A stretch of 64,000 nucleotides of DNA, taken from the NCBI GenBank assembly GCA_026712905.1, contig JAPOPM010000153.1, positions 1 through 64,000 on the forward strand. The letters run 5' to 3'. The position numbers were made by a program, and so were the translations under genes. The notes beneath the pieces are model-generated. The model saw only the letters and a program-made list of their open reading frames with translations. It was not told where the DNA came from and made no database searches. Positions within the stretch are counted from its first letter, which is position 1; each line of letters starts with the position of its first letter. Source of the stretch: Deltaproteobacteria bacterium. Lineage in GTDB: Bacteria; Desulfobacterota; Binatia; UBA9968; JAJDTQ01. Positions 10,030-61,164 of the stretch are shown here, one piece after another.

Positions 10030-10194
10030 CTAGTGTGGTGTCTGGTTAATTCGCATCATAACCTGCGGGTCTTTTTCGCCGTCGGCTGCGTTGCTCTTCC
10101 TCGCGTGGTGCCCGCCACTGCTCGTCATCGCGCCTTGCCGACGACAAAAAATCCTCCGCATATTATTATGCGAATTAACCAGACACCACACTAG
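10030..10194. mobile_element. 165-bp MITE-like palindromic element, copy 1
   Basis: The element starts CTAGTGTGGTGTCTGGTTAA and ends with the inverted form, so its terminal arms of about 30 bases pair. The central part (about 10070-10165) is nearly identical, in reverse orientation, to the core of a second 165-bp element at 60961-61125. It encodes no convincing protein. Its right end abuts mltA, whose TAG stop lies inside the terminal CTAG. Confidence 0.75.
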
Positions 10195-18258: not shown

Positions 18259-18306
18259 GCCACCGGTACGAACAAGACCGAAACACGCCCATTTAGCCCC
18301 TCCCCG

Positions 18307-18698
18307 CCCCTGGATTCCCGCTTTCCAAGCTGTGTCACAACTGATGGGCACAGCCCCTTCGATTCGTCATTCCCGCGGAACAGGCTGTGCCAAGACTGCT
18401 GAGACGCCGCCCCACGATTCGTCATTCCCGCGGAACAGGCCGTGTCAAGACTGCTGAGGCGCCGCCCCACTATTCGTCATTCCCGCGGAACAGCCTGTGC
18501 CAAGACTGCTGAGGCGACGCCCCCCGATTCGTCATTCCCGCGGAAGCGGGAATCCAGGGGCGGTGGAGGGGTGCTACAGCGACGCTCCCCCGCCTCACCA
18601 CCCCTGGATTCCCGCTTCCGCGGGAATGACGAATCGGGGGGTTTGGCGCCGGTTCTTGTCCGGACCACGTTTTGACACGGCCTGCTCCGCGGGAATGG
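18307..18698. repeat. Composite REP/BIME-like module A
   Basis: This module fills most of the gap 18259-18756. It begins with a degenerate half-repeat (CCTGGATTCCCGCTTTCC), continues through a 55-bp tandem array starting at 18361, then a long inverted repeat at 18520-18641. It closes with an inverted half-repeat (TTGACACGGCCTGCTCCGCG). The same architecture recurs at 39404-39632 and 49729-50027. It has no coding content. Confidence 0.85.
18361..18525. repeat. 55-bp tandem repeat, three copies
   Basis: Units start at 18361, 18416 and 18471, each opening with ATTCGTCATTCCCGCGGAAC after the first base and including CAAGACTGCTGAG. A fourth unit start at 18526 passes into the inverted repeat. The copies differ at only a few positions, indicating recent amplification. 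All bases belong to the unit, so there are no spacers as in CRISPR. Confidence 0.85.
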
Positions 18699-18756
18699 CG
18701 CCAGAGGGGCTTTCGTCTTCTTTCATTCCCGTCTCGGTTGTTCTACTCTGTCGGCC

Positions 18757-19763: not shown

Positions 19764-21062
19764 ATGGCACAACAGCTCAACGAATACCTGAAGGAACTCA
19801 TGCGGCAGGCCGAGTCCAAGCTCCCCGACTTGACCGACATCCGGCGCAGCCTGCACCGCCACCCCGAGGCGGGCTGGACCGAGTTCCGCACCACCGGCAT
19901 GGTGGTGCACCGGCTGCGCGAGCTGGGCTACCGGGTGGAGACGGGGTCTGACTGCATCCATCCGGACGCGGTGCGCGGCTGGCCCGAGGAGGCGGTGGTG
20001 CGGGAGAGCCGCGCCCAGGCGGGTGAGTTGGCGCGGGACATCGAGGTGCCGGGTGCGGTGGGCATCCTCGAGCGCGGCGAAGGCCCCACCGTGGCGCTGC
20101 GCTTCGACATGGACGCCACCGAGGTGGCCGAGTCCGACGACCCGGCGCATCCGCCCGTGGCCCGCGGCTTCGCTTCCGGCAAGCCCGACGTCATGCACGC
20201 CTGCGGCCACGATGCCCACGTGACCATCGGCCTGGGCGCGGCCGAGCTGCTGGCCGCCAACCCGGACTGGCGCGGGCGCGTGAAGCTCTTGTTCCAGCCG
20301 GCGGAGGAAGGCGGCCGCGGCGCCCATCCCATGGTGGAGGCCGGAGTGGTGGACGACACGGACTACTTCGCCTGCCTGCACATGGGCGGACCGACGTTGC
20401 CGCTGGGCGAAGTGGCGCTGGAGGCGACCCACTTCCTCTCGTCCGTGAAGATGGAGGCGCGTTTCCGCGGCGTGGCCTCCCACGCGGGCGGCGCGCCGGA
20501 ACGGGGGCGCAACGCGCTGCTGGCGGCGTGCCAGGCCACCTTGGCGCTCCACGCCCTGCCGCGCAACGGCCAGGGCGCCACCTTCGTCAACGTCGGCGTG
20601 CTGAACGCCGGCACCGGCACCAACGTGGTGCCGTCCGAGGCCCACATGAAGTACGAAGTGCGCGGCGGCACCGACGAGATCTGCGAGCTCATGGAGGAAG
20701 GCGCGCGGCGCTGCATCGAAGGCGCGGCCACGCTCCAGGGGGTCGAGGTCACCAGCGAGATCACCGGCCGCACCATCGGCGCCAAGTCCGACGGCGAGAT
20801 GAAGGACCACCTGGCGCGGGTGGCCGGGTCTTCGCCCGTGGACTTCCGCGTCCACGACGCCCGCCCCCTGGGCGGCGGCGAGGACGCCACCTACTTCATG
20901 CGCCGGGTCCAGGAACACGGCGGCAAGTCCCTCTACTTCCTGCTCGGCGGCAGCACCCCCACGGGACACCACACCTCCACGTTCGACGTGGACGAGCGCG
21001 CCCTGGCCCACGGCGCCATGCTCATGGCGGGACTGGTGATGCGCCTCACCGGGTCCCCCTGA
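19764..21062 (+). CDS. M20-family amidohydrolase (M20D, AbgA/B-like)
   Basis: The 432-residue protein has M20D features: L-H-R-H-P-E-A-G-W-T-E-F near residues 30-41, C-G-H-D-A-H near 147-152 providing the metal-site cysteine and histidines, P-A-E-E-G-G near 178-183, and a late T-G-H-H-T-S-T-F-D motif. The family hydrolyses N-acyl amino acids, indole-3-acetyl conjugates or aminobenzoyl-glutamate. A longer than usual segment around 60-90 contains I-H-P-D-A-V-R-G-W and is not part of the minimal family. It is followed 70 bases later by a second M20 enzyme, across a palindromic repeat. Cytoplasmic; substrate unknown. Confidence 0.87.
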   Translation: MAQQLNEYLKELMRQAESKLPDLTDIRRSLHRHPEAGWTEFRTTGMVVHRLRELGYRVETGSDCIHPDAVRGWPEEAVVRESRAQAGELARDIEVPGAVGILERGEGPTVALRFDMDATEVAESDDPAHPPVARGFASGKPDVMHACGHDAHVTIGLGAAELLAANPDWRGRVKLLFQPAEEGGRGAHPMVEAGVVDDTDYFACLHMGGPTLPLGEVALEATHFLSSVKMEARFRGVASHAGGAPERGRNALLAACQATLALHALPRNGQGATFVNVGVLNAGTGTNVVPSEAHMKYEVRGGTDEICELMEEGARRCIEGAATLQGVEVTSEITGRTIGAKSDGEMKDHLARVAGSSPVDFRVHDARPLGGGEDATYFMRRVQEHGGKSLYFLLGGSTPTGHHTSTFDVDERALAHGAMLMAGLVMRLTGSP

Positions 21063-21119
21063 ATCGTCATTCCCGCGAAAGCTTGCCCTCGACCCCGATC
21101 GGGGGCGGGAATCCAGGGG
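21062..21119. repeat. REP-like repeat, variant with GAGGGCAAGC insert, left copy
   Basis: The sequence runs ATCGTCATTCCCGCGAAAGC, then TTGCCCTCGACCCCGATC, then GGGGGCGGGAATCCAGGGG. It is the reverse complement of the repeat at 22387-22443, so the pair flanks the M20 gene at 21133 as inverted repeats. The gene's ATG is only 13 bases from the repeat's right end. Confidence 0.8.
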
Positions 21120-22386: not shown

Positions 22387-22443
22387 CCTGGATTCCCGCC
22401 CCCGATCGGGGTCGAGGGCAAGCTTTCGCGGGAATGACGATTC
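22387..22443. repeat. REP-like repeat, variant with GAGGGCAAGC insert, right copy
   Basis: This is the inverted counterpart of 21062-21119, reading CCTGGATTCCCGCCCCCGAT onward and ending ...GGGAATGACGATTC. A truncated half-repeat with TTTGACACAGCC follows at about 22471-22482. Confidence 0.8.
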
Positions 22444-22548
22444 AGGGGTCGTTGCCTATCCCGGATGGGGGTTTGACACAGCCCGAGAAGCTGGACTGAC
22501 GCATTCAGGATGGCGGCGGCGTTCCATTGCCCATAGCGACGGATTGAC

Positions 22549-39372: not shown

Positions 39373-39403
39373 CGGGCCAATGCGCCGCGCGGAGACCCTT
39401 TCC

Positions 39404-39632
39404 GTCATTCCCGCGGAACAGGCCGCGTCAAAACTCCACCTGGCCACGACCCGGCAGCGGTCCCCCGAATCGTCATTCCCGCGAAAGCGGGAATCCAGGG
39501 GTGGCGAGGCCGAGAAACGCCCTATAGGGCCCCACCACCACCCCTGGATTCCCGCTTTCGCGGGAATGACGATTCGGGGGGTTGTTGCCTCTCTCAGATG
39601 GTGTCTTGACACGCCTGTTCCGCCGGAATGAC
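39404..39632. repeat. Composite REP/BIME-like module B
   Basis: Outer half-repeats (GTCATTCCCGCGGAACAGGC at the left, an inverted TTGACACGCCTGTTCCGC copy at the right) flank a long inverted repeat at 39462-39581 whose arms themselves contain the palindrome CCCGCGAAAGCGGG. The layout equals modules A and C. It fills the gap between the isoaspartyl peptidase and the converging NadD-like gene. Confidence 0.85.
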
Positions 39633-49728: not shown

Positions 49729-50027
49729 CCCCTGGATTCCCGCCTTCCAGGCTGTGTCAATACTGATGAGGCAGAGCCCCCCCGGAATCGTCATTCCCGC
49801 GAAAGCGGGAATCCAGGGGTGGTGGTGGGGCACTACAGCGGCGTTGCCCGCCTCCCCACTCCTGGATTCCCGCTTTCGCGGGAATGACGACTCCGGGGGT
49901 TGGCGCCAATTCTTGCCCGGACGACGTTTTGACACGGCCTGGGAAACGGGAATGAGGAATCGGGGGGGGGGGGGCGCCAGTTCTTGTCCGGGCGGAGTTA
50001 TGACACACCCTGTTCCGCGGGAATGAC
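49729..50027. repeat. Composite REP/BIME-like module C
   Basis: A left half-repeat (CCTGGATTCCCGCCTTCCAG with GTGTCAA) is followed by a long inverted repeat at about 49778-49899. Another partial unit near 49926-49955 and the right inverted half-repeat (TGACACACCCTGTTCCGCGG) complete it. A G-run of about twelve near 49963-49975 is present. It fills almost the whole gap 49727-50071 between the DMT permease and the converging esterase. Confidence 0.83.
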
Positions 50028-52437: not shown

Positions 52438-52482
52438 CCCCCCGAATCGTCATTCCCGCGGAAGCGGGAATCCAGGGGCGGC
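52438..52482. repeat. Single REP-like palindrome
   Basis: ACCCCCCGAATCGTCATTCC through GGGAATCCAGGGGCGG is one arm of the common repeat. A trace of the GATCCGGGTCGAGGGCAAGG variant follows near 52515. It separates the TPR gene from the converging LLM gene. Confidence 0.8.
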
Positions 52483-52540
52483 GCGGCGCCAACCGGCCGG
52501 TCTCCCCGCCCATGATCCGGGTCGAGGGCAAGGGTGCGCG

Positions 52541-60960: not shown

Positions 60961-61125
60961 CTAGTGTCGTGTCCCGTAAATACCCGGCATAAGTTGCGCA
61001 GGATTTTTCGTCGTCGGCAAGGCGCGATGACGAGCCGTGGCGGGCATCACGCGAGGAAGAGTAACGCAGCCGACGGCGAAATAGACCAGCAAATTGTGCC
61101 GGGTATTTGCGGGACACGACACTAG
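60961..61125. mobile_element. 165-bp MITE-like palindromic element, copy 2 (inverted)
   Basis: The element begins CTAGTGTCGTGTCCCGTAAA and ends with the near-perfect inverse. Its core in reverse complement equals the core of the element at 10030-10194, and both are exactly 165 bases. Arm bases differ between the copies at matching paired positions. It lies between divergent AKR and SDR genes, in a position to affect their promoters. Confidence 0.75.
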
Positions 61126-61164
61126 TGTCCTGCGTCACAGCCAACGGCGACTTCGGAGGTGTTT

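Follow-up and report, generated by a model that had tools for sequence, protein, structure and literature searches.

Two 165-bp elements in the 64,000-nucleotide stretch of DNA analysed here (the window) raise the question of how both ends of an element can change together while its middle stays the same. A preliminary description had reported two elements of equal length that align without gaps when one is inverted, with a nearly identical core and differing outer arms, and we found it accurate on both points. Copy 1 (arm type A) lies at 60961-61125 and copy 2 (arm type B) at 10030-10194; each is 165 bp long with CTAG at its start and end, and they are 82% alike in a gap-free alignment when one is inverted and complemented. 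The core sets the plus strand as the sense strand of copy 1 and the minus strand as that of copy 2. Copy 1 consists of a left arm, or terminal inverted repeat, that resembles IS630-type ends (element positions 1-32; 60961-60992, with the CTAG target at 60961-60964), the left side of an inner stem (positions 45-58; 61005-61018), a conserved core (positions 59-108; 61019-61068), the right side of the inner stem (positions 109-122; 61069-61082), which pairs with the left side, and a right arm (positions 134-165; 61094-61125, with CTAG at 61122-61125). The corresponding parts of copy 2, on the minus strand, are a left arm at 10163-10194, a core at 10087-10136 and a right arm at 10030-10061. Each copy forms a single long hairpin (z = -12.8 for copy 1 and -14.5 for copy 2 relative to dinucleotide shuffles). 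The differing zone covers approximately positions 8-32 and is mirrored on the opposite arm. This co-varying zone is sharply bounded, because positions 1-7 (CTAGTGT) and 31-32 are nearly invariant and positions 33-34 are mismatched in most copies.

The window copies are members of a family of about 50 small, gene-less mobile elements in their own genome. Searching that genome (4.8 Mb in 280 contigs) gave 60 core matches, the last few of which, with 3 mismatches, include chance matches, leaving about 50 true copies. A degenerate arm pattern matched 98 times in the same genome and reversed control patterns did not match at all. The element was present in all nine genomes (MAGs) searched from one Binatia/Deltaproteobacteria genus and was absent from all 49 more distant genomes searched. 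Named records with the exact core were 'Candidatus Binatia' or 'Deltaproteobacteria' MAGs, including the closed chromosome OX638375.1. A closed genome, G004, carries about 50 copies, some of them nearly identical, and in both G004 and the window's own genome the copies are short (165 bp), multi-copy and dispersed, as MITEs are. From the copies gathered by our searches we extracted 142 with both ends; 109 of these are exactly 165 bp long, and among the longer ones small palindromes are often inserted into the core.

Several further features of these loci were observed. Two recurrent small palindromes, TTGTAGGGGCGACCTGCGGTCGCCCC and GACCCCGGGTCAAGGCCCGGGGTGACGT, occupy fixed sites in the core of longer copies (L035, L036, L041-L044, L048-L059 and others), and neither was found in the 64-kb window. 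Copies L064, L065 and L072 are near-perfect palindromes of approximately 39, 45 and 60 bp that consist of the two arms with the core deleted. In genome G001 (L100, L108, L116), the inner core pair at columns 68/98 has changed in step from U-A to C-G, a species-specific paired change within the core itself. Islands appear to be integrated into the element, and their junctions have the common motif GGTCTTTT; one junction type was seen at L010, L017, L019, L020, L021, L039/L088, L054, L055 and L076, and a second at L069, L079, L082, L083 and L084. Tyrosine integrases (Phage_integrase plus Arm-DNA-bind_3) that are 90-100% alike in several loci adjoin one of the junction types, and the element seems to serve as the attachment site for a family of integrative islands. 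The window also contains a second palindromic repeat family, GTCATTCCCGCG...GCGGGAATCC, with 14 sites (within 18295-18700, 21056-21117, 22387-22448, 39387-39589, 49729-50027 and 52438-52508); at 18314-18588 it forms a 55-bp tandem array, and two 62-nt stretches that are perfect inverted repeats enclose 1269 bases.

With many copies available, we asked whether the matched arm differences that keep each window copy self-complementary were an accident of two copies. They are general in the family: many arm sequences occur, neither fixed arms nor unpaired arm change was the rule, and pairing is kept. Among 125 clean copies, arm-to-arm agreement at the variable positions 8-30 was 87-98%, compared with 30-80%, and mostly 30-60%, expected from column composition. 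A base-pair covariation test over 66 distinct gap-free copies found standard pairs in 98.1% of cells (shuffles, 80.3%; slid controls, 35-51%) and changes on both sides in 33 of 49 pairs. Between 45 non-overlapping pairs of nearest neighbours we counted 44 matched double changes where 0.44 were expected from the single-arm rate, approximately 100-fold above independent mutation. Transversions, which cannot pass through a G·U pair, made up 21 of the 44, and sister copies that are otherwise identical are set apart by single-base matched changes. About 20 arm types sit on one common core (21 clusters, three of which are hybrids with unlike arms), and between copies in the window's own genome the mean difference is 48% in the arms but only 5% in the core. 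The inner stem (45-58/109-122), which lies outside the terminal repeat, covaries as well, with C-G, U-G, U-A and G-C all used at one pair.

Copies with unlike arms are rare (3% of copies: L097, L103/L179, L218 and L229). Two of them, L097 and L103, share a genome, and their arm combinations are reciprocal, as would be expected had recombination through the core joined two copies. We also sought the origin of the hybrids via their flanks in other species, with no informative match.

The preliminary description had set the arms apart from transposase-bound terminal repeats, and this distinction did not hold: the arms are terminal repeats of the IS630 type at CTAG/TA, common to the IS630 elements of the genus. 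IS630-family transposases (DDE_3; NF033545) are present in the genus. Their ends agree with MITE arms at 28 of 30 bases for the left end of the IS630 in the window's own genome, 27 of 28 for L240 and 24 of 28 for L241, whereas the best score of shuffled IS630 ends had a mean of about 16 and a maximum of 21. In the class as a whole, most IS630s for which ends were found begin TAGTG.. inside CTAG. Insertion was confirmed by 16 orthologous empty sites, at which the joined flanks align without the element; the clearest, in the exact 4-bp target register, are L142 against L136 and L101, and L101 against L142, and the other alignments carry small extra gaps. At 12 of 284 ends the flank begins like another element end across a common CTAG. 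Clear cases are IS630 ends at L016 and L171 and the right end of copy 1, which abuts a remnant of a type-F end (CTAGTGTCCTGCGTCACA, 61122-61139, plus strand). The elements thus classify by sequence as IS630-type MITEs, because they have IS630-type ends, CTAG insertion, empty sites and abutment through CTAG. The duplicated unit lies inside CTAG, and the exact target duplication would be TA, as taken from the IS630 model. The TAG within the element's terminal CTAG is frequently also the last codon of a neighbouring gene (18 on the left and 15 on the right as counted with a simple gene caller, for example L003 and L004), so insertion sites at stop codons are common.

A search for DDE_3 in the window's own genome found none. 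The 5' and 3' ends of its IS630 survive at contig ends, and therefore this IS630 has probably been collapsed in assembly. In the closed genome G004, with its roughly 50 copies, we found no IS630 bearing such ends, and for arm types A, B and F the searches gave no transposase with corresponding ends; both results count against mobilisation by IS630.

We propose that these elements are MITEs in which copying from arm to arm, under selection by IS630-type transposases, maintains the match between the arms, a reading to which we give a probability of roughly 0.62. The elements would be non-autonomous foldback transposons moved in trans by IS630/Tc1-mariner-type transposases, which would insert them at CTAG and duplicate TA, and the outer ~30 bp would be the terminal repeats that these enzymes recognise. 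Because the arms are adjacent and paired, a mutation in one arm could often be copied into the other by hairpin template switching or repair, and a single event would thereby alter both ends. As long as a resident IS630 still recognised them, variants would continue to spread; the core would remain fixed, and the end pairs would diversify with a changing set of IS630 transposases.

Template switching between the arms of a stem generates matched changes in one step and homogenises hairpin arms (PMC8794818). The many matched transversions fit template switching better than a two-step path through G·U, and we consider that it may be the general, or main, source of the matched changes. Direct evidence of arm-to-arm copying is provided by copy L008, the one copy with an unambiguous tract, in which the left arm has been duplicated in place of the right arm up to approximately position 50, so that the usual 33-34 mismatch and a one-base bulge are gone. 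Three observations count against the arm-copying account. An unambiguous tract was seen in this single copy only. Most copies retain the 33-34 mismatch and the inner-stem wobble pairs uncorrected, and thus either the copying itself or selection on it must be confined to the terminal repeat. In addition, arm copying alone predicts no strand bias, yet G·U mismatches exceed A·C mismatches.

Single-arm mismatches on the core-defined sense strand comprised 61 G·U and 18 A·C after repeated contexts were removed (p ~1e-6), with a ratio of 24:0 at positions 26-28 and 37:18 in the remainder. When sense-strand changes were polarised against neighbouring copies, we counted 41 A to G and 18 C to T, and 9 T to C and 5 G to A. 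In 105 of 109 copies the fold of the sense strand is more stable than that of the antisense strand, and the inner-stem columns 49/118, 51/116 and 52/115 use C-G, U-G, U-A and G-C with hardly any A·C. Covariation with wobble intermediates on one strand, as in structured RNA, is present. These results suggest a constraint on one folded strand, either RNA or single-stranded DNA. The earlier proposal that selection or replication acts on a folded arm survives in part: the G·U-biased mismatches, the covarying inner pairs and L008 point to a folded intermediate, but the contrast drawn with transposase-bound terminal repeats is not supported.

Other sources of the G·U excess were considered. Replication-strand mutation bias was rejected from the data of G004, where, with origin and terminus estimated from only 20 sampled stretches, the sense strand of 25 copies lies on the G-rich replication strand and that of 25 on the other. 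Selection through host-gene transcription was rejected given the unbiased orientation of elements relative to neighbouring genes (35 versus 42 with a simple codon-usage gene caller) and a G·U excess that is equal in both orientations. No general sense-strand mutation bias was seen among the few events in the core loop, and a comparison with the known RNA families of Rfam gave no match at the gathering threshold or at E <= 5.

Could one strand instead have a function in the life cycle of the element when folded, be it as RNA or as single-stranded DNA, such that selection on the fold rather than arm copying pairs the arms and the IS630 ends are only sites of exit and entry? The mismatch counts, the near absence of A·C from the inner-stem columns, the more stable sense fold and a core conserved in sequence next to arms free in sequence all favour this explanation. 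However, because insertion orientation is random to genes and the bias is independent of it, no host transcript explains the G·U bias; orientation is random to replication too, 24 of the 61 G·U events fall at positions 26-28, Rfam offers no match, and transversions, which do not arise via wobble pairs, account for half of the matched double changes. We consider this explanation unlikely. A combined version, in which the mobility cycle includes a folded stage of one strand (RNA or single-stranded DNA), with selection on the hairpin and renewed copying of the arms from each other, could allow the terminal repeats to change as a unit and the element to switch IS630 transposase with its core unchanged; we offer it tentatively, as a somewhat doubtful extension. 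The RNA form of the fold constraint is a putative one, and we keep a strand-specific constraint as an unexplained addition to arm copying and not as the main mechanism.

A simpler explanation is that matched arms merely result from transposase recognition: each lineage would carry two copies of the bound end, and elements with mutated ends would become immobile, with neither folding nor arm copying. That the arms are IS630-type ends, and that the co-varying zone and the terminal repeat both end near position 32, agrees with this idea. Autonomous IS630s, however, move with a match of only 18-24 of 26 bases between their two ends, a range that is if anything an overestimate given a detection cut-off of 18, and thus the enzyme does not demand such close matching; the MITE arms agree at approximately 96% over the same span (per-position values, 125 clean copies). 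Nor would recognition produce single-base matched changes between otherwise identical sister copies, covariation of the inner stem outside the terminal repeat, the L008 arm copy or the G·U bias. We conclude that recognition of terminal repeats does not by itself explain everything, because the arms match better than IS630 ends, L008 carries a copied arm, pairing extends past the terminal repeat and mismatches are biased to G·U, and we hold the recognition-only explanation to be improbable.

A hairpin of the TnpA-REP or integron attC kind, recombined as a single strand and recognised by shape, would account for a strand-specific fold, for structure kept while sequence varies and for tyrosine-integrase islands using the element as attachment site, but it is very improbable given single dispersed copies at CTAG with empty sites and no cassette arrays, termini explained by IS630 ends, and a Y1 transposase that was found only once each in G000 and G004 and not at all in G001 despite dozens of copies there. 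The search for a TnpA-REP partner that the preliminary description had called for was negative in G001, and neither TnpA-REP nor reverse transcriptase, as an obligatory partner, was found in that genome. REPs are palindromes of 20-40 bp tagged at one end with GTAG or CGTC; the present element, at 165 bp with CTAG at both ends, does not fit the REP/TnpA-REP (RAYT) group. Nor does it resemble an integron attC, with copies dispersed over the chromosome in both orientations rather than in cassette arrays.

The arm-copying account bears on an open question about how terminal repeats co-evolve with transposases, namely how both transposon ends can change together and remain active. One fixed core with about 20 matched ends in sister genomes makes this question testable, because the matched ends come with single-base matched changes, unlike-arm hybrids and one arm-copy event. 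The strand-biased wobble hints at a folded single-strand stage, and we know of no description of such a stage for IS630-type MITEs.

Among known systems, the RUP of Streptococcus pneumoniae is a 107-bp MITE thought to be mobilised by IS630-Spn1, and like the present element it is small, non-coding, palindromic and intergenic, with a TA target and ends common with an IS630-family element (excerpts of PMC2229807). The present element would work as RUP does with IS630-Spn1. In the same excerpts, RUP has a single type of terminal repeat, linked to a single IS, whereas here one core carries about 20 matched end pairs, and arm covariation is not reported there. The Correia/NEMIS elements of Neisseria are also short, with TA ends and terminal repeats, and are transcribed as a long stem-loop; as excerpted in PMC2229807, however, they have a fixed 24-bp terminal repeat where ours vary, and their RNase III processing acts on host transcripts, whereas orientation to genes is random here. 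IS630/Tc1-mariner elements such as ISY100 (PMC2170065) share the CTAG/TA target and the same kind of terminal repeats, but our element lacks a transposase and its arms match far better than IS630 ends. Template-switch maintenance of hairpins (PMC8794818) resembles our case in its matched stem changes, with one arm templating the other, and has been described for RNA genes, not for transposon ends. Our literature search for covarying MITE arms found nothing directly comparable. What is unusual here is a fixed core with many matched, co-varying end pairs together with a strand-biased wobble.
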